From positions 1 through 64,000 of the forward strand of contig DATBHW010000021.1 in assembly GCA_036557285.1 (NCBI GenBank): 64,000 nt of DNA, read 5' to 3'. Shown one piece after another: positions 552-57,700 of the stretch (its first letter is position 1; each line of letters begins with the position of its first letter). This DNA is from Ktedonobacterales bacterium (GTDB taxonomy: Bacteria; Chloroflexota; Ktedonobacteria; Ktedonobacterales; DATBGS01). The notes under the pieces were generated by a model. That model searched no databases and was not told where the DNA came from. It worked only from the letters and a program-made list of their open reading frames with translations. Position numbers and translations under genes: made by a program.

Positions 552-1520
552 ATGTCACTCAATGAATCGCCCTACGCCCTCATTCCTCGGCTTGTCAAAA
601 CACTTCACCTGTTGCAGCGGCAGCCCACCACCGCACGCAAGCTTTGTGAAACAATCTCGCCTGAAACCCAGCCAGCAGGCGCCAGCGGACTGATGCGCAC
701 CATCCGTGATGTTCGTGCGCTTCGGCAGCTTGGGTTTCTCATCCAGGAGAGCGGCAAACCTATCACATTCACCCTCATCGGCTGGCCGATTCCACCCTTT
801 AGTAACGAAGAACTGAACACGCTCGCCTTAATTCGAGAAACATTCGGAGCGCCAGTTCCCCATTCCGGCAGAATACAGCAACTCCTCGAACGTCTCACCG
901 CCTCCCTCCCTGAAACACAGCGTCGGGTCTATCTCCGGCGTCCTGCGCTGCGTGTGCCCCTCCACACAGCCATAGACTATCGCCCCTATGAAAAGCTGAT
1001 CCTCTGGCTAGAAGAAAGCATCTCCAACCGTCATCAAATCGCCTTTGATTATCAATCAGTCACCTCTCAGTCTGTGGTGCGCCATGACCCGCTTGATCCG
1101 TATGAAATTGAATACTTCCACAATCACTTTTATCTGATTGCCTACAGCTATCGCTGGGGATATACGCAAGAGTTCCGCATTGATCGCATCATCGAAAACG
1201 AGAACAGCCCACAGCGCCTCCACACCCTTATCCCAGGCATAAAGTCACGTCGGCTCATCACCTTCACCTATCGCCTTCCAGCGCGCTTCGTTGAGCATGG
1301 TGTCAGCGAACGCTTTATCATCCTTGACCATTCTACCAAAGAAGAACCGAACGGAGAATGGGCTTATATTACGGCGCAAGGCCGCAGCGACTTCTGGATC
1401 ATCCGCACGCTTTTGGCCTACGCGGAAAACGCCGTGATCGTCGAACCAGCCTGGCTCAAAGAAAAATACCTCGCCACATTGAGAGCGATGCTGGCAGCGA
1501 ACGAATCACATTCGTTATAA
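552..1520 (+). CDS. WYL-domain transcriptional regulator of the cas locus
   Basis: 322 aa. The N-terminal ~85 residues look like a winged-helix DNA-binding domain (pattern of a helix followed by MRTIRDVRALRQLGFL). A WYL-type ligand-binding domain follows around residues 150-225, with FDYQSV, YEIEYFHNHFYLIAYSY and FRIDRI matching the family, and a WCX-like C-terminus. An AAGGAGG lies 11 nt before the ATG. It is encoded just upstream of cas10d, in the same direction, separated by 184 bp that contain a perfect palindrome. WYL proteins next to defence systems (for example BrxR/CapW and DriD-like proteins) commonly act as repressors or activators sensing nucleic-acid ligands. Control of this cas operon is inferred from position. 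Confidence 0.85.
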   Translation: MSLNESPYALIPRLVKTLHLLQRQPTTARKLCETISPETQPAGASGLMRTIRDVRALRQLGFLIQESGKPITFTLIGWPIPPFSNEELNTLALIRETFGAPVPHSGRIQQLLERLTASLPETQRRVYLRRPALRVPLHTAIDYRPYEKLILWLEESISNRHQIAFDYQSVTSQSVVRHDPLDPYEIEYFHNHFYLIAYSYRWGYTQEFRIDRIIENENSPQRLHTLIPGIKSRRLITFTYRLPARFVEHGVSERFIILDHSTKEEPNGEWAYITAQGRSDFWIIRTLLAYAENAVIVEPAWLKEKYLATLRAMLAANESHSL

Positions 1521-1596
1521 TTTTCCGCATTCTTGGACGATTCTCAGCCTCTTGCATCGCTCGGTATACTAAGCAAGAAGTCCTGATCTCCGCTTT

Positions 1597-1621
1597 GCAT
1601 CCGACAGAATATGTCGGATGC
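1597..1621. promoter_or_regulatory. Perfect palindrome, candidate operator before cas10d
   Basis: Arms GCATCCGACA (1597-1606) and TGTCGGATGC (1612-1621) pair perfectly around GAATA. No T-run follows, so it is unlikely to be an intrinsic terminator of the WYL gene. A TATACT (1565-1570) lies upstream and could be a -10 box, but no good -35 is visible. Position between a WYL regulator and the operon it probably controls makes an operator the best reading. Confidence 0.55.
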
Positions 1622-1704
1622 GTCTGCTACACTTGTATCAGAGACCGGCAAGCGCGAGAGAGTGGTTGAGGCGCCGGTAGTTCAATACTGAGGAGCGCGA
1701 CACT

Positions 1705-4626
1705 ATGGATGGCTACTCGTTTTCCGACTACTTCCAGATAGACGCTGAAGGGCAATCGCTGCTTCAGGACTATCTCGAAACCGTTGCCAAAGGACCATTC
1801 CGCCGCTACAAAGCGCTTGCCCAATACGGCAAAAAAGCGGGGGAATCGCTCTATACCCATATCCTCGATGGCATCCTCACCCTAAACCAATTATGCAGCC
1901 TGGTCGCCCTTGACGACACCGAAATGCGCACCCTCTTCACCGCCTTCACCCTTCACGACATCAACAAGCTCGATACATGGCCGCGCAAAAACTTTGTCGA
2001 AATTGCCACCCCGGAGAACGTCGAACGATTCATTAGTGAGTTTCGGCTGAACGAATTCTTTCCAGGCTACCTCCATTATCTTCAAGATATTGTCGAATTG
2101 ATCCTTGCCCATCCTGGGCACAGCAACTATGATGTAGCGCGGCTGGACCTGACGCGCGCGCATCTATTCGGGTTGTCGCTTGAGCGGCTGAAGGTACTCA
2201 TCCACCTCATCCGTTCCGCCGACAACCTTGACCTCTCCCAGACGCTGGATGAGTGGCGCGGCCACAAAGACAAGTTCCTCTCCGAATTCAACATGGCCTG
2301 CGACGATACGCAGTACGAGTTCTTTACTCATCGTCTCACCGAGCATCGTGGCTTGCTCACCAACATCATCCACAACAACATCAGCCAGACGCTTCAGGAG
2401 CGATGTCAGGCCATGCCGCTGCTGCTCTATCCTGAAGGCATCGCCTATCTCGTCAAGCGCGGCTCCAGCATCATCGTTGATGACGCCATGCTTGCCGATA
2501 TGGCCGGGCGAATTACCAGCGCCATTCAGGCCATGACCAGAGCGCGCTTCGAAGACTTTATCGAAGTCCGGCCTCTGGGCATTCGCATCAACGAAAAATG
2601 CCTGGAGCTAGGCATCCCCTTCAGCGATCTCATGCAAGCCGCCCGCAGCATCATCGAACGGCGGCGGCTCGATGCCACCGAACTGCGCCAGAAGGCGCAG
2701 GCCCGTGCCGAGCGGCGGCTAGCCGACATCCCAGCCAACGATCCGCGCCAGGCCGCCACCGCCGCGCTGCTGGCAAATCCAACCTTCGTACCCGACGCGG
2801 CTGACCGCCTGCGCGCCGCTGAGGCTATACGCACCTACTATATTTTTCTGAACGAGCATTTCAGCGCCGCTGTGGCCGACCCCTGGGCGCGCCTTTATGA
2901 TCTTTTCCAGCTTCCCCAGGATCAGCGCGCAGGCTATGAAGCATTCGACCCTCGCCTGGACCGCGCCTATGTCGTCATCAACGACGTGGCACTTTCCACC
3001 GGCGACATCTGGGAGCGCATCATCGCTGATGGCTCCGCCTTGCTGGGCCAGCGCCAGAACGCCGACCCGCGCATCCCGCTCTTCGTGGAGTATGTGCAGC
3101 AGACCGCGCAGTTCGGCTCCCCCGCGCAAGAGGAGCGGCCCAATTTCCAGCACTACCTCAAGCAATACACCACCAACCAGCACCGCCAGTGTGTGCAGTG
3201 CAGTGCCTGGTTCCCAACCGAACCCTGGATGAAGTCTGATGTGCGCTCGGAGATCAGTGTCAACACATTCTCTAATCGGCTGGCTGGTGGACCCGGCGAA
3301 CCCAAGAAATATATCTGCGCACTGTGTCAGGTCCAGTTCCTTGTTGAAAAGCTCGCCTTCCAGGAAGTGCGCGGCGAACATATCTTCTATCTGCATCTGT
3401 ATCCCTACTCGTTTTTGCCCGCCGCCTTCATCGAAGGAGTACGCGCCAATGTACAGCGCGACAGGAAGATGGATGCAACCGCCCAGGCGTTCTTTCTGCG
3501 CCCCGAAGACTATATTGCCCAATACGCCCCCAAGGAAGCGCCCCCAGAACTGCAATTCCTGACGCAGACGAAAGCTGGGAAACCGCACGTCAACGGCCTC
3601 TATCTCCCCAATTACTCAGAAACCATCGGCAACCTCATCATCGAACCCATCAATCCACCCGGCGACAACGACACCGAGCGGTTTCTGTATGTGCTTCAGA
3701 TGGCCCTGCTGCTCCAGCGTCATCGCGGCTTGAAAGCGTTGGTCAGCGAATCGCCAATACCGCCGCTGCGAAAAGACGACTTCCGCGACCTCTACCTCGA
3801 CCTGCAACCGCTCAGCATGCAAGGGCTGACTGAGGATGTCAACTTTTCCGCCTATCAGGACGGCGACCAACCGGGGAACCTGGAACCGCTCTGGGAACGC
3901 ATGAAAGCCATCATGACCTTGCGCAAACACCTCAATAGTATCAAAGATAAACGCAACCCGGTTATCGAACTGGCGCGGGCGCTCACCACGCATCCACTGG
4001 AGGTCTTCTATGTCGCCGAACGGCTGCTAGACAACCGGATGAGCGAGCAGCGCTCGTTTTCCAAGGGGCAGCAAATCTTCACCCGCATCAAGGAAGCGCG
4101 TATCTTGCTCCCGGCGCTGGAGCAATTGGCGAAAGCCACGAAAGGAGGACAGAAAGTGGCATCGGTCAGCGACCAGTTACAACAACTGGCAACCATTGCC
4201 TGGGCAGGCGGGCTGCGCGGGCGCTCGCTGGAGAAGCATTCGCTCATGGTACCCTTCAACGAATGCCTGAATCAACTCAGCCATCCCAGCAAAGCCTTCG
4301 ATGAAGCGGCGATCCGCGCCACCATCAACATGGAAATCTTCGAGTACCTCAAGCGTACCGCGAAGGAGGGATACAAGCCCGGCGCGCGCAAACGCGAGGC
4401 CATCAGAGCATTTGTGGACACTTTCTTTGATGGGTTGTATGGCGGCGTCTACGACAGGAACAAAGCCTTATTCCTCAACGATGAGCGTCGGCTGCGCTCC
4501 GCCTATCTCTTCTATATCTGGGAGCGCATCCCGCACAAGGGCGAAAACCTGCCAGAAGATTCCATCATCGATGAGCCAGACGAACCTGACTCCGAGGAAG
4601 TGTTGGAGTCAGGAATAGTTGAGTAG
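1705..4626 (+). CDS. cas10d: Type I-D large subunit Cas10d/Csc3 with HD nuclease domain
   Basis: 973 aa, the usual size of Csc3. It is the large subunit of the type I-D interference complex and also carries the DNA-cleaving HD domain. N-terminal HD residues are visible: H52 (YTHILDG), H84-D85 (LHDINKL), H136/H139 (AHPGHSN) and D173 (RSADN), so the nuclease looks intact. A zinc-binding pair CxxC is at C496/C499 and C538/C541. The C-terminal half is the divergent Cas10-like palm and helical region, ending in an acidic tail. First gene of the cas operon. Its TAG stop overlaps a possible GTG start of csc2. I-D systems carry HD here and not on Cas3, which fits the helicase-only Cas3' downstream. 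Confidence 0.95.
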   Translation: MDGYSFSDYFQIDAEGQSLLQDYLETVAKGPFRRYKALAQYGKKAGESLYTHILDGILTLNQLCSLVALDDTEMRTLFTAFTLHDINKLDTWPRKNFVEIATPENVERFISEFRLNEFFPGYLHYLQDIVELILAHPGHSNYDVARLDLTRAHLFGLSLERLKVLIHLIRSADNLDLSQTLDEWRGHKDKFLSEFNMACDDTQYEFFTHRLTEHRGLLTNIIHNNISQTLQERCQAMPLLLYPEGIAYLVKRGSSIIVDDAMLADMAGRITSAIQAMTRARFEDFIEVRPLGIRINEKCLELGIPFSDLMQAARSIIERRRLDATELRQKAQARAERRLADIPANDPRQAATAALLANPTFVPDAADRLRAAEAIRTYYIFLNEHFSAAVADPWARLYDLFQLPQDQRAGYEAFDPRLDRAYVVINDVALSTGDIWERIIADGSALLGQRQNADPRIPLFVEYVQQTAQFGSPAQEERPNFQHYLKQYTTNQHRQCVQCSAWFPTEPWMKSDVRSEISVNTFSNRLAGGPGEPKKYICALCQVQFLVEKLAFQEVRGEHIFYLHLYPYSFLPAAFIEGVRANVQRDRKMDATAQAFFLRPEDYIAQYAPKEAPPELQFLTQTKAGKPHVNGLYLPNYSETIGNLIIEPINPPGDNDTERFLYVLQMALLLQRHRGLKALVSESPIPPLRKDDFRDLYLDLQPLSMQGLTEDVNFSAYQDGDQPGNLEPLWERMKAIMTLRKHLNSIKDKRNPVIELARALTTHPLEVFYVAERLLDNRMSEQRSFSKGQQIFTRIKEARILLPALEQLAKATKGGQKVASVSDQLQQLATIAWAGGLRGRSLEKHSLMVPFNECLNQLSHPSKAFDEAAIRATINMEIFEYLKRTAKEGYKPGARKREAIRAFVDTFFDGLYGGVYDRNKALFLNDERRLRSAYLFYIWERIPHKGENLPEDSIIDEPDEPDSEEVLESGIVE

Positions 4627-4658
4627 TGGATAGTGAACAGGAAGGATACACCGCAACC

Positions 4659-5633
4659 ATGAGCATCATTGATCGCTACAGCGCCCATCTGCCAGCCACC
4701 TATAGCAACTCGCCCCAGGGGCGCTTTGTCAGCCTGCTGCTGGTGCGCAAAGTGGAATCAGAAGCCATCTTCCGCACTGAAGGCAGCGGCGAACCGCTCA
4801 ACCGCGAATTCGTCTTTGCCGGACGCCAGCATCGTGAAGGCCAGCCACCTATTCCGCGCATCGTCATCAGCAAGCGCAAACAAACGGCAGTCGAACGCCG
4901 CACCGGGCGCGAACTGCTGCGTCGCTATAACCTGCTCAAAGGCAAAAATGATCGTGTCTGTACGCTCAACACCAACACCCCATGCGAATGGTGCGTTGAT
5001 TGTATGCTCTATGGCTATGCCGCTGGAGGCGGTGGCTCGCAGCGCTCGCGGGTCATCACCGACGATGCCTTTAGTTTGCACTCCGCCGAGACGATCACCG
5101 GGCAGCGCCAGTTCAACGCCCTCTTCGACAGCAGCACCATGTATGATCGTGATACCGGGAAGCGCTCAACCAGCATCAATACTGACGAATATATCCGCCC
5201 GGAATCGCTCTTCATCGACATCGAAACCCTGAAGGATGTCACGCCCGACGAACTGCGCTACACGCTTGGCAACCTGTTCCGCTCAGCGCGCTATGGCGCG
5301 ATTTCCTCGCGCATCGGCAAGATAGAGAATATCCTGGCGGGCGTCGTCTTCAGCGATTGCGAACTCTTCTCTAATCTGGAACTGACGCAGACCGTCTTTG
5401 ATGTGCTGGGCGATGGTAAAGACCTCGACTTTCCGCTGCACCCAAGCCAGGCCGAGCGCGCTGTGCGCGAAGCGACTACTGGCTTGCTGCGTGACCTGCC
5501 GGGACGGTTTGTTGCGCTCTCCGAAGAGGAAGTGAACGACCTCCGGCGCGAGATCGTCGCGCTCTATTCCGACGAGTCGGCGCTTGAAAGCATGCTGCGC
5601 CAGATGACCGCGAGCTACGGCCCACGAGCTTAG
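4659..5633 (+). CDS. csc2: Type I-D backbone subunit Csc2/Cas7
   Basis: 324 aa from ATG 4659, which has GAAGGA upstream; a GTG at 4626 overlapping the cas10d stop would give 335 aa. Csc2 is the Cas7-type protein that polymerises along the crRNA in the type I-D complex. Recognisable family features: FVFAGRQH...PRIVISKRKQTAVERRTGRELLRRY, a cysteine cluster CEWCVDCMLYG, the glycine-rich loop AAGGGGSQRSRV, and the ARYGAISSRIGKIEN segment. It sits between cas10d and csc1, the order expected for signature I-D genes. Only the start is uncertain. Confidence 0.94.
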   Translation: MSIIDRYSAHLPATYSNSPQGRFVSLLLVRKVESEAIFRTEGSGEPLNREFVFAGRQHREGQPPIPRIVISKRKQTAVERRTGRELLRRYNLLKGKNDRVCTLNTNTPCEWCVDCMLYGYAAGGGGSQRSRVITDDAFSLHSAETITGQRQFNALFDSSTMYDRDTGKRSTSINTDEYIRPESLFIDIETLKDVTPDELRYTLGNLFRSARYGAISSRIGKIENILAGVVFSDCELFSNLELTQTVFDVLGDGKDLDFPLHPSQAERAVREATTGLLRDLPGRFVALSEEEVNDLRREIVALYSDESALESMLRQMTASYGPRA

Positions 5634-5646
5634 AGAGGGGACGACA

Positions 5647-6399
5647 ATGCCCCATATCTATCGCTGCGCGCTCGAACTGATGGAGCCAACTTTCTTTAGC
5701 AGCCGGGAGGTCAGCGCCATCTATCAGACCGAGCCGCTGATCGGCAACTATGCCCTGGCCTATGCGTTTGGTTTCTGCCAGGCGCCCTATCGGACCGCTG
5801 GCTCGCCGCGTTACCGCGAAGACCTGGGCGGCCTCAATCAGCGCGGCCTGTATGTCACACCGGCCACCATCCAGGGCGCGCCGCGCTTCACCGTCGGCGA
5901 ATTCAACGCGCAGACCGATACTTACTGGTACGCGATGGGAAATAATCTGCTGGTCACGCGGCCAGATGGCGCATGGGCAGAAGGAGCAATGGGCGCCTGG
6001 TATATCATCGAGCGCCCTGGCGAGAAAGGCCGCAAGCTCGGTGTAGAGAATCGGCCCCAGCATGGGCGCATCCGCTATCTGGCGCTTGGCAACGTTGCGC
6101 TTTGCTATGTCATCAGCGAGCAGGACATCACTATCCCACGCTATATTCGGCTGGGTAAGTTTATGAGTAAGGCCAGAGTGACCGCCGAGCCGGTTGCCTT
6201 CGAGCTGGTCCATGCGGAAAACGTCACTATTGGCTTCCTGCTGAACCCAGCCGATCTGCCAGCGGAACTGGCTATGACGTTCTGGGACACGATCAATGTA
6301 CCCCCAACGCCGCTCATCAAAAATCTGCGCTGCTCCGGCGCGTGCTATCGCATTGACCGTGACCGCTATCTCCCGGCGCGGATGGCCTTCGGCGTGTGA
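5647..6399 (+). CDS. csc1: Type I-D Cas5-like subunit Csc1
   Basis: 250 aa. Csc1 is the Cas5-family protein that caps the 5' handle of the crRNA in the I-D complex. The N-terminus (HIYRCALELMEPTFFSSREV followed by TEPLIGNYALAYAFGF) is typical of Csc1. It starts 14 nt after csc2 with GAGAGGGGACGACA before the ATG, so the genes are co-transcribed. Length matches the family. Confidence 0.93.
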   Translation: MPHIYRCALELMEPTFFSSREVSAIYQTEPLIGNYALAYAFGFCQAPYRTAGSPRYREDLGGLNQRGLYVTPATIQGAPRFTVGEFNAQTDTYWYAMGNNLLVTRPDGAWAEGAMGAWYIIERPGEKGRKLGVENRPQHGRIRYLALGNVALCYVISEQDITIPRYIRLGKFMSKARVTAEPVAFELVHAENVTIGFLLNPADLPAELAMTFWDTINVPPTPLIKNLRCSGACYRIDRDRYLPARMAFGV

Positions 6400-6464
6400 A
6401 CAAACACGCGTGGCGGGGGAAAGCAGGGCTGCTTTCCCCCACCTGCCCAGGAAAGGACTCTCTT

Positions 6465-8846
6465 ATGAAGATCAGGCTCCAGGCTCACGAAGAGAAACTC
6501 GCGCCCCCGCATCCGCTCTTTAAGCGGCGCGATGGACGGCCCCTGCTCTACCACCAGATACGCACGCCAGAAGCCCTTCAGACGCGCGATCTGGTGATGA
6601 ACACCTACAACACTGGCGCGGGCAAGACCATTGCCGGGCTGATGTACCTGCTGGATCCCGCCATGCAGCACAATAAGAATGTGCTGGTTATCGCGCCCAC
6701 CAACGCCCTACTAGAGCAGCATGCCAACGATATTAGCGACTTCGTGCAGAATGAGGGCCTGCGCTATCAGGTCCAGACCGTCACCGCCGCGACGCTCAAC
6801 CAGTTGAAGCCGGGCTATCATCTGCGCAAAGGCGAACTGCTCTATCGCCTCATCGAAAATCCACGCGAGTTCAGCGCCGATACTGCGGATCAAAGCAAAA
6901 AGCCGCTCATCATGGTCGTCAACCCGGATATTTTCCACTACGCGCTGCTCTACCAATACCGTCCAGTTGACCAGCGCAACGTCTTCGCCGCCATCGTCAC
7001 GGCGTTTACCTATATCATCATTGACGAGTTTCACTATTACGACAGCAGGCAGCTTGTCTCTTTTCTCTTCTTTTTCCTGCTCTCGAAAAAGTGGGGCTAC
7101 TTCGAGCGGGCAGGCCGCAAGATTTGTCTGCTTTCGGCCACGCCCACCGACGAGCTACGGCAATATCTGGATAACCTCTTTGGCGAGCGTTGGACTCAGA
7201 TCGCGCCGGAGAACGAGCCACCCGAAAGCGAGGACTACCAGCGTATCCCCGCCCTCGCGCCCCTGGAAGTAGAAATACTATCCGACGCCCTGCCAGAGTG
7301 GATCAGGCAGCACAGTACCCAGCTTGCCGACTGGAAAGCGCGAGGGCTGGACACCGCTATCATCAGCAGTTCGCTGCGCAAGATCAACGAGGTCTATAGT
7401 CATCTACAGCGGCAGGGACTAGAGGCCGGGCGCATCACCGGACCGGAGCCAGAAGAGAAGCGGCTGGCAGCCATCAAGAACCCCTTTATCCTGGCAACGC
7501 CAACAGTGGATATTGGCTATAACTTTGACCGCCCGGAGAAAACACCCAGACGCCAGCCCATTGATGTGATTCTCTTCGATGCGCGCTTTCATGATGAAGC
7601 GATTCAGCGCCTGGGGCGCGCTGGCCGCGTGCTGGGGCGGGATGTGACCGATTATCCCGGCCAGGCCATCGCCTTCTTGCCAGAAGAGGCCGCCCGGGCG
7701 TTGCAGCAGCACGATGGGCAGGAGATGAGCCGCCCGGATTTCAGCGCCCTGCTCCGCGCGCTGCCGGAGCTGCCCGCAAAGCATCGCCTCTTTCGCTATA
7801 TCAGCGTCTATGGCATGATCGAAACGTTCTTCCCCATCGCGCTGCACACCAGGCGCGAACAGGCTGATGGCCGCGAGGAACAGCTTGAGTCCCTCTTTAA
7901 GGAGATGCGCAGCGCCCTGGCTCCCCACAGCAAGCGCAAACTGCCGGGCCTGCGTTACGGATTCGAGGTTTTCCGAGACAACGAGCAGTTTGTGCAGGAG
8001 CGCCAGCGCAATCAGCGCTGGCTGCCTCCCAGCGACTATACCTTGCGCAAGCACCTGCAACGGTTCAGCGAGTGGTTTGACCAGACGGGAGAAGTGAGCG
8101 AGAGCCGCTCCTTTGAGCAGGAAATCGCTTTCCTCAAACGCAGGCCGTCGCTGGCGGAGCGCAGGCTGTCGCGCTTCATTCACGAGCAATATTATCTGAC
8201 GAAGGCGCTCTTCAGCTTCCGCGACGCTTTTTCTGGCCCAGCGGCCAACGTCTATGATCCTGAACGCCTGCTTTCTTCCGAGCCGATCAACAGCTACGAC
8301 CTGTTTCACATTCTGGAGAATTATCACTACGATGTGCGGTCAGCCGACCAGTTTCGCCAGCTTGCGGAGGGCTATCCTGAACGCCAACACCTGCTTGACT
8401 CGGACGCTGCGGTATCTCTCGTACTGAGAGGCCGACGCGAGGAGAAGCTGTACCTGACGCTTGCGCTTGATTTTGAGGATGAAGAGCAGGTCTTCGAGAA
8501 GCTGTACACCTGTCGCCCGGTTGCCTGCGCTGGCTTTACTCTGCAAACTGTGAGGTCGGGCAAAGAATCAATTCCCATGCCGCTCCCGCAAGAACTGGCC
8601 GAAGCGATCAAAAGCGAGTATCTCCCCTTTCTTGCTGTGCGCGATTCGGCTTCTCACCGGCTTATCCTGGTGATGCGCCAGGCTCCATTCTACAGCCGCA
8701 AGCTGCAAGTGACCTGCCGAGGCAAAACGGTTGATTATCAGGCCATCTTTGGCAGCGCCGCCTTCCACATTGACGCGCAGTATGGCTGGTCTCTGCGCAG
8801 CCGACAGCGCGATGAGGACGAGCGCCAGACGGCCATTATCATCTAA
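6465..8846 (+). CDS. cas3': Type I-D helicase Cas3' (no HD domain)
   Basis: 793 aa from ATG 6465, preceded by GGAAAGGA; the frame is open upstream but has no better site. Superfamily 2 helicase motifs are clear: motif I NTGAGKT (49-55), motif II DEFH (about 187-190), motif III LSATPT, motif V TPTVDIGYNFD and motif VI QRLGRAGR. No HD motif is present, as expected when Cas10d supplies the nuclease. It would unwind target DNA recruited by the Cascade-like complex. It lies between csc1 and cas6 and not at the head of the operon, a less common order. Confidence 0.93.
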   Translation: MKIRLQAHEEKLAPPHPLFKRRDGRPLLYHQIRTPEALQTRDLVMNTYNTGAGKTIAGLMYLLDPAMQHNKNVLVIAPTNALLEQHANDISDFVQNEGLRYQVQTVTAATLNQLKPGYHLRKGELLYRLIENPREFSADTADQSKKPLIMVVNPDIFHYALLYQYRPVDQRNVFAAIVTAFTYIIIDEFHYYDSRQLVSFLFFFLLSKKWGYFERAGRKICLLSATPTDELRQYLDNLFGERWTQIAPENEPPESEDYQRIPALAPLEVEILSDALPEWIRQHSTQLADWKARGLDTAIISSSLRKINEVYSHLQRQGLEAGRITGPEPEEKRLAAIKNPFILATPTVDIGYNFDRPEKTPRRQPIDVILFDARFHDEAIQRLGRAGRVLGRDVTDYPGQAIAFLPEEAARALQQHDGQEMSRPDFSALLRALPELPAKHRLFRYISVYGMIETFFPIALHTRREQADGREEQLESLFKEMRSALAPHSKRKLPGLRYGFEVFRDNEQFVQERQRNQRWLPPSDYTLRKHLQRFSEWFDQTGEVSESRSFEQEIAFLKRRPSLAERRLSRFIHEQYYLTKALFSFRDAFSGPAANVYDPERLLSSEPINSYDLFHILENYHYDVRSADQFRQLAEGYPERQHLLDSDAAVSLVLRGRREEKLYLTLALDFEDEEQVFEKLYTCRPVACAGFTLQTVRSGKESIPMPLPQELAEAIKSEYLPFLAVRDSASHRLILVMRQAPFYSRKLQVTCRGKTVDYQAIFGSAAFHIDAQYGWSLRSRQRDEDERQTAIII

Positions 8847-12034: not shown

Positions 12035-14046
12035 GTTAGAAGCTGGCTGAATCTCCGCTGGAGATTGAAACTCTTTGGTGGCCTGGCGCGGGGGCAGGAT
12101 GTGTTCAGTTAGAAGCTGGCTGAATCTCCGCTGGAGATTGAAACTCGTCTACCAACGCATAGCTGTCATCTGCGACCAGGAGTTAGAAGCTGGCTGAATC
12201 TCCGCTGGAGATTGAAACTGATCACGGATATGCAGCGCATCATCCGTATTTTCGTTAGAAGCTGGCTGAATCTCCGCTGGAGATTGAAACTTACCTGGCC
12301 CGCAAATGGGGGGCTTATCGGCAGGGGTTAGAAGCTGGCTGAATCTCCGCTGGAGATTGAAACGGTGCAAACACGGCAACTGCCAAAATTGTAGATGGCC
12401 GTTAGAAGCTGGCTGAATCTCCGCTGGAGATTGAAACTACTGCATTGCCATATACGTCGTCCATGGCCTGGGGTTAGAAGCTGGCTGAATCTCCGCTGGA
12501 GATTGAAACGTCGGCTGCCGGATGATGGCGCTGTTCTCGTTGTGGGTTAGAAGCTGGCTGAATCTCCGCTGGAGATTGAAACCGTAGCTCTGGGATTACA
12601 CTCGTAGGCTCGTTGCAGTTAGAAGCTGGCTGAATCTCCGCTGGAGATTGAAACTATATCACAGCCTGCCCGACACTGACCATATCACTAGTTAGAAGCT
12701 GGCTGAATCTCCGCTGGAGATTGAAACGCATGCCAAAGTCAATGCCTGGCTGGACAGCCAGCGCCAGGTTAGAAGCTGGCTGAATCTCCGCTGGAGATTG
12801 AAACCTGACGGCAGGGGGCGAGCGGGGGATCGGCTTTCTAGGTTAGAAGCTGGCTGAATCTCCGCTGGAGATTGAAACAATGCGCAAGATGACTTGCATG
12901 CGGCGGCAGATGCGTTAGAAGCTGGCTGAATCTCCGCTGGAGATTGAAACATCCGATCCACCTGTATAGGCGCCCCCCGCTCGGAGAGTTAGAAGCTGGC
13001 TGAATCTCCGCTGGAGATTGAAACGATGATTGGGCGTCCCAACCACCCACGCACCCGAAAGTTAGAAGCTGGCTGAATCTCCGCTGGAGATTGAAACTTC
13101 TGCACTCATAACTGCCCACCTACTTCTTATTCTTGTTAGAAGCTGGCTGAATCTCCGCTGGAGATTGAAACTACTAACTTCAGGCGTTCAACATTCAACG
13201 AAAGAGGTTAGAAGCTGGCTGAATCTCCGCTGGAGATTGAAACAGGGCTTCGATCTCCGGCTCAAACGCAGCGACGGAGTTAGAAGCTGGCTGAATCTCC
13301 GCTGGAGATTGAAACGGCTTGCAGTGGGATGCACACCAGGACAGCCGACGGGTTAGAAGCTGGCTGAATCTCCGCTGGAGATTGAAACTATGCCGAGAAC
13401 TCAGCCTCTGGAAACTTCCAGCAGTGTTAGAAGCTGGCTGAATCTCCGCTGGAGATTGAAACAAATGGCTTACGCCTGTTACTAAAGAGGCATTTACGTT
13501 AGAAGCTGGCTGAATCTCCGCTGGAGATTGAAACCCTAGCGCAGACGCTCGGATGGCAGCATTATAACGTTAGAAGCTGGCTGAATCTCCGCTGGAGATT
13601 GAAACGAATATCCAAAGGCGCCAGAAGTGGGCGAGGCAGGTTAGAAGCTGGCTGAATCTCCGCTGGAGATTGAAACTTCCAGACATGCCCACGTCATGTA
13701 TTGACGATCACCGTTAGAAGCTGGCTGAATCTCCGCTGGAGATTGAAACCGGGCAAGGCTTACTGCATGTGTGGCAAAGCGTCAAGTTAGAAGCTGGCTG
13801 AATCTCCGCTGGAGATTGAAACTTGTCTGAGAGCGGTATCAGGCCATGGGGGGAGTTCAGGGTTAGAAGCTGGCTGAATCTCCGCTGGAGATTGAAACTC
13901 CGGTCGATCAGGGTCTCCATCTCTTGCATCTGCGCCACGTTAGAAGCTGGCTGAATCTCCGCTGGAGATTGAAACCATCAGAAAGCGCCGGGTAAAATAG
14001 ACGCCGAGGGTTAGAAGCTGGCTGAATCTCCGCTGGAGATTGAAAC
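12035..14046 (+). CRISPR. CRISPR array 2, 28 repeats and 27 spacers
   Basis: A 37-bp repeat starting GTTAGAAGCTGG and ending GGAGATTGAAAC recurs with a period of about 73 bp from 12035 to 14046. Start positions include 12035, 12108, 12182, 12254, 12327, 12401, 12473 and so on to 13862, 13939 and 14010. Spacers are 34-40 bp. No mismatch between repeats was seen by eye, including in the last one, where decay is usual. The array is transcribed from the leader at 11844-12034. Its distal end abuts a truncated transposase gene, so older spacers may have been deleted. Confidence 0.98.
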
Positions 14047-14049
14047 GGC

Positions 14050-55393: not shown

Positions 55394-55410
55394 AAGGTTT
55401 TATAAGATTT

Positions 55411-55537
55411 GCAGTAACAAAACGTCGCAAGACAATTTTAGCACTGCCCGCTTTCTCGGTCAATACCTTACAGCGGCCTGCCTCTTACCCCGGTTGTTCA
55501 CCTAACAGCCTACAAAACTGCGACGTCTTGTTACTGC
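55411..55537. repeat. Inverted repeat, 19-bp arms
   Basis: GCAGTAACAAAACGTCGCA (55411-55429) matches the complement of 55519-55537 with one mismatch, 89 nt apart. It lies 46 bp before the octad array and could be part of an origin or a regulatory RNA. Confidence 0.6.
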
Positions 55538-55582
55538 TAGGTTGCTAGTATCATACAGCCAGCGTTTTTACCCTGTCTAGCC

Positions 55583-55735
55583 GTACTACAGTACTCCCGT
55601 ACCACAGTACGTCCCGTCCCCTGGTCCCCTAGTACGGGCGTACCGTGGAACCACGGCGCCGGAGCACCCTAGTTCCAGAGAACTATCGTACGAGGGTACT
55701 CTAGTACCATAGAACCAAGGGACTAGGGTACCCCT
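55583..55735. repeat. Phased array of ~19 octads GNNCnnnn, candidate centromere
   Basis: GTAC occurs at 55583, 55591, 55599, 55607, 55632, 55640, 55688, 55696, 55704 and 55728. From 55616 onward every 8 bp starts with G and has C at place 4 (GTCC, GTCC, GTAC, GTAC, GAAC, GCGC, GCAC, GTTC, GAAC, GTAC, GTAC, GTAC, GAAC, GGAC, GTAC), and the first four units are also 8 bp apart with one 9-bp step at 55607. Tandem short units like this are bound by RHH dimers in type Ib partition systems (omega/ParG). It sits upstream of parA. Confidence 0.75.
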
Positions 55736-55801
55736 ACATATGCAGCAGGTGCAACAAAATAGCATTGACAGTACGCTTGCTGCTGCATTAAGCTTACCGT
55801 T

Positions 55802-55978
55802 ATGAAGGCGTATCTCAACGCATCCGAGGTCGCAAAACTATTGAGGGTAGACCGGGCCACGGTCAGCCGCTGGCTCAAGAAAGGCCGCGTGAAAGGGGCA
55901 ACCAGAGTTGGTAGTGCAGGGCAGTGGCGCATTCCATTAGAATCATACGATAAGCTTATCAGAGGCGGCCAGCAATGA
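55802..55978 (+). CDS. Small MerR/excisionase-like HTH protein
   Basis: 58 aa: MKAYLNASEVAKLLRVDRAT followed by SRWLKKGRVKGATRVGSAGQ and WRIPLESYDKLI. The helix-turn-helix with a wing is typical of excisionase-like or small DNA-binding proteins. Stop overlaps the parA start (ATGA), so it is part of the partition operon. Confidence 0.8.
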   Translation: MKAYLNASEVAKLLRVDRATVSRWLKKGRVKGATRVGSAGQWRIPLESYDKLIRGGQQ

Positions 55979-56736
55979 AGGTGGTTAGCTTCTCGATATT
56001 CAAAGGCGGGACAGGGAAGACCACCTCCACTGTCAGCACAGCCGCCGCGCTGAGGAAGAAAGGGAAGCGCGTTTTGTTGGTTGACCTTGACCAGCAGGCG
56101 TCAGCGACACGGTATCTTGATCTTGACCCAGAGGCAACCCCCAGTCTCTACGATGTCTTTCTTGGGGCGAAGTCCGCCCAGGCTGCGATCAGACATACTA
56201 AGTTCGGCATCGATGTCTTGCCATCCCACTACCTGCTTGCAGCCATTGAAGAAGCGCTGGAGCCTGGTGAGGAGCAAAAGCTCTCAGGTATGCTAAATCC
56301 GTTGAAGCAAGAGTATGACTTCATCCTGATTGATACGCCGCCTGGCAAGGCTATGCTGGCGTTTAACGGTCTGGCCGCCGCCGACCTGATTGTTATACCA
56401 GCCTCTGCCGAACGCATGGCAGTAGACGGCGTAGCAGACCTTATATCGCATGTCCAGAAGATCATGTGGTCAAAGTTCGCTCTGGGCCATCAGGAGCTAC
56501 GCATCCTGTTTACCATGTACCGGGCGACGACCAGTCATTCACCGGCTATCGTCGAGAATGCCCGGAAAATCTGGCGCGAAAACGTGCTGAATTTCAAGAT
56601 ACCTCATGCCACCATCTTCTCGCGTTCCTATGACGAGAAGACACCAATCGGTATGTTAGACCCATCCCACCCTGGTGCAATTGCTTATGACCTGTTTGCG
56701 GATTGGTTAATCGACAGCAGCAATGAAGCAGCCTAG
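55975..56736 (+). CDS. parA: ParA-family partition ATPase
   Basis: 253 aa. Deviant Walker A KGGTGKTT (10-17), Walker A' VDLDQQASAT, Walker B LIDTPPG. No N-terminal HTH, so ATPase core only, as in type Ib partition. Forms nucleoid-bound gradients that move plasmid complexes with a centromere-binding protein. Overlaps the HTH gene start and the RHH gene, so translationally coupled. Confidence 0.92.
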   Translation: MKVVSFSIFKGGTGKTTSTVSTAAALRKKGKRVLLVDLDQQASATRYLDLDPEATPSLYDVFLGAKSAQAAIRHTKFGIDVLPSHYLLAAIEEALEPGEEQKLSGMLNPLKQEYDFILIDTPPGKAMLAFNGLAAADLIVIPASAERMAVDGVADLISHVQKIMWSKFALGHQELRILFTMYRATTSHSPAIVENARKIWRENVLNFKIPHATIFSRSYDEKTPIGMLDPSHPGAIAYDLFADWLIDSSNEAA

Positions 56737-57085
56737 AACCAGTGATTTTGACCCGAACGCTAAAGAGCATAGCCTCAAGTCTTCGATGGCCGACTTCCCG
56801 GCTATAGAGAAGCCGAGGCCGGTACAGCCCAAAATTGCTGCCAAAGAGCAGGGGACTCCAGGACCAGAGGACCAGAGTACCAGGGTACCCCTGACATCCG
56901 CCGCTGAGCCGAAGCGAAAGATTAAAAAGCGGCACCCCTTCGACATCTATGAAGATCAGATTGAGGCGCTTCGGCAGCGCTCTATTGAAGACCAGAAGCA
57001 GGGAGGGATTGGCAGCCAGAGCGCGATGGTTCGGGAAGCGCTAGATGACTGGCTCGCCAAAGTCAGGGGAAGAATGGCACCATAG
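56723..57085 (+). CDS. RHH centromere-binding protein, partner of ParA
   Basis: 120 aa. N-terminal ~70 residues disordered and Pro/Lys-rich, C-terminal RKIKKRHPFDIYEDQIEALRQRSIEDQKQGGIGSQSAMVREALDDWLAK in ribbon-helix-helix pattern (strand ending HPFDIYED, two helices). ParG/omega-like place in the operon, overlapping parA by 14 bp. A second octad cluster lies inside this gene at 56853-56892. Confidence 0.8.
   Translation: MKQPRTSDFDPNAKEHSLKSSMADFPAIEKPRPVQPKIAAKEQGTPGPEDQSTRVPLTSAAEPKRKIKKRHPFDIYEDQIEALRQRSIEDQKQGGIGSQSAMVREALDDWLAKVRGRMAP
56853..56892. repeat. Second octad cluster within the RHH gene
   Basis: Five consecutive units at exactly 8-bp spacing: GGACtcca, GGACcaga, GGACcaga, GTACcagg, GTACccct. 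The last unit is identical to the last unit of the 55583-55735 array. Encodes part of the linker (approx. GTPGPEDQSTRVPLT). Confidence 0.65.
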
Positions 57086-57515: not shown

Positions 57516-57700
57516 ATGCTGATAGGCTACGCCCACGTCTCTCCCAGGACCAAACGCTACACATGCAGACCAACGACTGAAGGCGGCTGGCTACGACCTC
57601 AGCCACATTTCCGCTGATACTATCAGTAGCTCTACGGTTGACCAGCCAGGCTTATGCGAGGCACTGAGCCACTGGCCGAGGTTTGGACACCACGCCCTGA
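57516..57700 (+). pseudogene. Decayed serine resolvase
   Basis: Starts MLIGYAHVSPRTKR (compare GYARVS of resolvases). After a frameshift, LKAAGYDLSHISADTISSST and DQPGLCEALSHW follow, clearly the same family. The catalytic Ser of YARVS is present but the gene is truncated after ~60 codons and shifted. The gap 57502-57999 has no other gene. Confidence 0.75.

Follow-up and report, generated by a model that had tools for sequence, protein, structure and literature searches.

The mechanism considered here is drawn by analogy with the type Ib partition systems (PMC5016525, PMC9499535, PMC7308502). In the ParFGH system of TP228, a small ParA is followed by a small downstream protein with a flexible N-terminus and an RHH C-terminus, and 4-bp boxes recur every 8 bp, in runs upstream of parF; in a TP228-type ParFGH system of an IncX1 plasmid (L254), ACTC boxes are found at 965, 973 and 981 and again at 999, 1007, 1015 and 1023. 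In delta-omega-parS of pSM19035, an RHH protein acts on contiguous short repeats, at least 4 of which are required by omega, with several arrays per replicon (PMC9499535). Tandem 8-bp boxes, AGACGTCT, are also bound by the RHH protein MetJ (PMC4239095). In ParA-ParT-parS of Streptomyces SCP2 the gene for the centromere-binding protein contains the centromere site in its coding sequence (PMC12260392), while SegAB of Sulfolobales combines a ParA-type ATPase and an RHH partner with sites that are mostly intragenic (PMC12284271).

The window analyzed in this work is a stretch of 64,000 nt (positions 1–64,000 of contig DATBHW010000021.1 from a Ktedonobacterales bacterium with a genome of 5.1 Mb), whose features of interest are collected in Table 1. 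We consider this locus likely to be a type Ib-like partition module, of the plasmid or ICE type, in which the RHH-like protein encoded by gene 3 reads an array of octads as the centromere. The original prediction described a ParA-RHH operon, and the ParA and RHH-like genes do adjoin, but the operon consists of three genes overlapping end to start (HTH, ParA and gene 3), with the HTH gene standing between the array and parA and its stop overlapping the parA start (ATGA). The ParA also gives a PHROG ParA-like match (6e-56) and profile matches to solved Soj/ParA chains, and it has the type Ib trait of being small and without an N-terminal HTH extension, AAA_31 beginning at residue 1. Among NCBIfam models, the HTH protein matches BldC (2e-7, below the cut-off) and TIGR01764 (above its own cut-off). 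A TTGACA-like hexamer is found in most relatives, and a lag-9 repeat lies just 5' of the -35 hexamer in most family loci, with a mean of 7.0 of 9 positions matching.

Table 1. Features of the candidate partition locus (positions in the window).
Feature	Position	Strand	Basis or remark
Array block 1: four octads, all GTACNNNN	55583..55614	.	Read in 8-bp steps
Array block 2, candidate centromere core: fifteen unbroken octads GNNCNNNN	55616..55735	.	
9-bp direct repeat TGCAGCAGG TGCAACAAA, candidate HTH operator	55741..55758	+	Lag-9 repeat
Promoter-like TTGACA-17-TTAAGC ahead of operon	55765..55793	+	Sequence reading
HTH_17 protein, BldC/excisionase-like, 58 aa	55802..55978	+	Pfam HTH_17 1.6e-10
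ParA ATPase, 253 aa, deviant Walker A KGGTGKTT	55975..56736	+	Pfam AAA_31 1.2e-41
Gene 3, RHH-like protein	56723..57085	+	N-terminal motif, linker, C-terminal RHH-like domain
Array block 3: five octads within gene 3 linker codons	56853..56892	.	

The upstream region holds 4 + 15 octads, with a 1-bp slip between blocks 1 and 2, and GTAC is present in 10 of the 19; the original prediction (about 19 units, ten of them GTAC) had counted these correctly, and the unbroken phase it reported for block 2 holds in a direct reading, each of the 15 octads having G as its first letter and C as its fourth. The five further octads that it placed within the RHH gene are present as block 3, with cores of GGAC, GGAC, GGAC, GTAC and GTAC in order and with the ending GTACCCCT that is shared by the upstream and internal blocks. 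Since G1 and C4 are found in all 24 units, upstream and internal, the outer positions of the octad core have two-fold symmetry. The periodicity check that had been proposed was run and gave an 8-bp peak above shuffles in both blocks: the lag-8 self-match of 55580–55740 is 0.536 vs. 0.258 for dinucleotide shuffles (z = 7.3, reached by 0 of 5000), and that of the internal block is 0.628 vs. 0.270 for shuffled sequence (z = 4.8, 0 of 5000). Lags of 16, 24 and 32 are raised as well in the upstream array; 8 is the only short lag to be raised, and lag 7 is at background. The phased G..C run of 15 octads is longer than any obtained when the whole window was shuffled 50 times, the longest of those being 6.

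A weight matrix built from the upstream units alone finds the internal block with 27.5 bits for 4 units, and a scan of the 64 kb with this matrix gave nothing comparable beyond the internal block, the next best score being 10.4 bits. In pattern scans of the 5.1-Mb genome, runs of 7 phased G..C octads occur only at this locus, four phased GKAC octads are confined to these blocks, and block 1 is the sole place with four phased GTAC octads. The internal block is not a by-product of the protein sequence, since 8 is no multiple of 3 and the lag-8 signal lies above that of synonymous-codon shuffles, 16 of 2000 of which reach the observed value.

The gene 3 protein, the predicted reader, is laid out as a conserved N-terminal motif (PRxxDFDP...PxIEKP, within residues 1–34), a variable linker and a C-terminal domain at about residues 69–116. 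The C-terminus forms a strand-helix-helix stretch with a weak match to RHH families: the RHH_1 match of the window protein is weak (E of 0.12), and those of two relatives are stronger (RHH_1 at 0.0025 in L072 and RHH_3 at 0.009 in L127), all three lying below the curated cut-offs. AlphaFold models are of low confidence (pLDDT 66 and 53), and two C-terminal helices are predicted after a strand-like segment. From the weak profile matches together with the helix pattern, we infer that the C-terminal domain adopts the RHH fold. No match to the window protein was found in PLSDB, where 761 records match ParG; in this search no kinship of gene 3 with ParG was detected.

Relatives were obtained from one scan of a genome collection and several searches of sampled genomes, and an order-level repeat from another centre returned the same genomes. 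Fifteen loci (L064–L073 and L123–L127) were found, most of them in Chloroflexota MAGs, with a ParA 48–79% identical to that of the window; searches of PLSDB, viral contigs and phage records gave no close relatives. Two further ParA relatives, L132 and L133, were set aside as a Soj-ParB pair and an unrelated system. A clear 8-bp-phased stretch is present in 11 of the 15 relatives (L064–L073 and L125), within the codons for the gene 3 linker, immediately 3' of the gene, or both (L064 is without an internal block), while in the other four (L123, L124, L126 and L127) GAAC/CCGAACGG-type repeats stand at non-8-bp spacings in the gene 3 linker and/or just after it. Short tandem repeats, a type Ib centromere trait at the sequence level, are thus found at the operon in the window and in most relatives. 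The search of homologous parA neighborhoods suggested at the outset supports a candidate centromere beside the operon, with units inside the gene of its putative binder, in the relatives as well as in the window; the arrays are kept, but their cores are lineage-specific and some spacings depart from 8 bp.

Best lag-8 scores have a mean of 0.615 over the 16 family loci and of 0.475 over 58 other ParA loci, although some of these unrelated loci also score high (top control 0.69), and among lags 5 to 13 only lag 8 shows such a rise. In L126 and L127, CCGAACGG repeats occur 12 and 16 bp apart in and 3' of gene 3, which suggests relatives with an altered dimer spacing. Two of the controls, L026 and L039 (ParA 33–37% identical), likewise show array-like units where an RHH-like gene further downstream encodes its linker, and the feature may thus extend beyond this family. 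Four phased GTAC octads turn up at at least 120 sites in viral contigs, but just 2 of 80 such sites have a ParA-sized P-loop gene within 2.5 kb, and neither a ParA nor an evident RHH gene was seen next to the arrays that were inspected. Since viral GTAC arrays mostly stand without a ParA-size gene, GTAC octads alone are not diagnostic of a partition site. Viral contigs L177, L164, L159, L202 and L181 carry degenerate phased GTAC octads, of up to 12 units, with no ParA nearby.

The position of the array differs between loci, being upstream of the operon in the window and inside and downstream of gene 3 in most relatives. This bears on an alternative in which the octads serve mainly as an autoregulatory operator of the RHH protein, with a roadblock in the gene and little or no role as a centromere. 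RHH partition proteins are usually repressors as well (PMC5016525, PMC7308502), and the internal block is well positioned to control elongation. However, the window array lies upstream of the promoter elements and not over them, and the larger array, which is 3' of gene 3 in most relatives, cannot be an operator of the operon promoter. We therefore regard a mainly regulatory role as unlikely.

To identify the protein that reads the array, we compared array similarity, taken as 6-mer content, with protein similarity in partial Mantel tests, treating flanking arrays and linkers separately. The array correlates with the C-terminal domain of gene 3, given ParA, with r = 0.70 for flanking arrays and 0.74 for linkers (both p < 0.0002), whereas the correlation with ParA, given the C-terminal domain, is 0.34 and −0.02, respectively. 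With near-duplicates removed (n = 12), the values for the C-terminal domain are 0.34 for flanking arrays (p = 0.007) and 0.61 for linkers (p = 0.0004), and those for ParA are 0.04 and −0.27. As judged from these tests and from the natural domain swaps described next, the array follows the C-terminal domain of gene 3 and not ParA or the HTH protein, although physical linkage of the linker, domain and downstream array could explain part of the co-variation.

Two natural swaps argue against the HTH protein or ParA as the array reader. Locus L066 resembles the window clade in its ParA (76–78%), HTH protein (47–55%) and N-terminus of gene 3, which is of the window-clade type, yet its C-terminal domain is 51–61% like those of L068–L071 and L073 and it carries their GGTATCAC octads; there is no assembly gap from the N-terminus to the C-terminal domain, and two N lie between parA and gene 3. 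Similarly, L125 is close to L126 and L127 in its ParA (77–78%), HTH protein (56–70%) and N-terminus (66–69%), but the C-terminal domains are 16–20% identical and the arrays differ (CAACCAAN vs. CCGAACGG). An exception is L064, whose array is partly GGTATCAC-like and whose domain is of the window type. The pattern suggests that the reader domain and its site are exchanged together.

The swaps also weigh on a second alternative, in which the HTH protein, and not gene 3, binds the octads head-to-tail and the array serves as an operator or a site of excision. The BldC and excisionase families bind direct repeats, BldC in a head-to-tail fashion; the HTH protein matches these families and the array lies just upstream of its gene. 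Nevertheless, L066 combines a window-type HTH protein with an array of the other type, and the HTH proteins of L125 and L127 are 70% identical while their arrays are different. In the relatives the arrays are within and 3' of gene 3, a long way from the HTH promoter, and the separate 9-bp direct repeat by the -35 element in most loci would suit the HTH protein. Reading of the octads by the HTH protein thus seems quite improbable.

Near the operon are Replic_Relax, coupling-protein and weak MobL-like genes, and the left portion of the window appears to be chromosomal, so the module is probably on an integrated or plasmid-like mobile element. The relatives carry Replic_Relax, coupling proteins and TOTE-type primases, with large serine recombinases in L064 and L071. 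In two of them (L067:3718–4752 and L070:3614–4723), a fusion of a TOTE-type archaeo-eukaryotic primase with a CHC2 zinc finger lies just 5' of the partition operon. That the arrays are iterons or oriT accessory sites, with the RHH protein a relaxosome or replication accessory factor, would suit the coupling-protein and Replic_Relax genes of the element and the action of the RHH proteins MobC (PMC4175270) and PcfF (PMC6514445) at oriT, but we find it very improbable, as gene 3 is directly 3' of parA, often overlapping it, and not beside a relaxase or rep gene, and the arrays go with parA and gene 3 across differing gene neighborhoods.

Elsewhere in the window, an imperfect inverted repeat (TGCAGTAACAAAACGTCGCAAG ... 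CTGCGACGTCTTGTTACTGC, 55410–55540) is found about 45 bp before the array and is a possible terminator, origin or recombination site. The start of a resolvase-like reading frame, apparently broken, is seen at 57518–57600, and a CRISPR-like array with the 37-bp repeat GTTAGAAGCTGGCTGAATCTCCGCTGGAGATTGAAAC at 12107–14047, with large open reading frames upstream (552–8846). Neither an RNA family (Rfam) nor a tRNA was detected.

In the partition module that we favor, the short N-terminal motif of gene 3, followed by the flexible linker, would contact and act on ParA, presumably as an activator. The RHH-like domain would bind the octads as side-by-side dimers, one per 8 bp, on the 19 upstream units and on the 5 units embedded in the codons of the protein's own linker. 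Once loaded, the array would serve as the centromere that is moved by ParA over the nucleoid. The window blocks of 4, 15 and 5 units compare with the minimum of 4 for pSM19035 omega. The internal block would lengthen the centromere and may double as a roadblock limiting expression of gene 3, while the HTH protein would control the operon promoter via its own 9-bp direct repeats.

Because the reader domain adjoins the internal units and, in most relatives, the main array, a recombination event within the linker could swap specificity with the ParA contact kept. We lean, by a little, toward a family of partition modules whose centromere DNA also encodes the linker of its reader; the reader domain and its cognate centromere would then be passed on and exchanged as a single cassette via linker recombination, switching plasmid incompatibility while ParA is retained. 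If so, site specificity would change in a single recombination step, which would explain the matched protein and site; the natural reader-site pairs (GTAC, GAAC, GGTATCAC, CAACCAA, CCGAACGG and others) would bear on how RHH domains choose their boxes, and plasmid-type partition would be extended to little-studied Chloroflexota mobile elements.

The 8-bp phase itself is not new, since TP228-type ParFGH boxes stand 8 bp apart and MetJ binds tandem 8-bp boxes; the original prediction, which set the octad as a novelty against the 7-bp units of omega, has to be withdrawn on this point, both of these systems (for MetJ, PMC4239095) already having 8 bp. In the part of the literature that was covered, no report was found of an RHH partition protein whose linker codons carry a phased array that recurs in a family and is exchanged with the DNA-binding domain, and priority is unproven. 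Compared with ParFGH, which has an ACTC core and AT-rich spacers, the window has GTAC/GNNC and spacers that are not AT-rich, and ParFGH has neither boxes arrayed in parG nor an HTH gene. The omega protein of pSM19035 reads 7-bp asymmetric WATCACW heptads over promoters, whereas the window has units of 8 bp whose G..C frame is symmetric, some of them within the gene of the predicted binder. MetJ is a SAM-responsive metabolic repressor of methionine genes with few boxes and no ParA, in contrast to a GTAC/GNNC core and a gene within a parA operon. ParT of SCP2 is a ParB-like clamp on a single 18-bp inverted repeat with no phased RHH array, and the sites of SegAB are palindromes scattered over the chromosome, with no phased arrays in the gene of the partner. 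As far as we found, what is new relative to these systems is the recurrence of putative centromere units in the linker codons of their reader, together with the exchange of reader domain and array as a pair.
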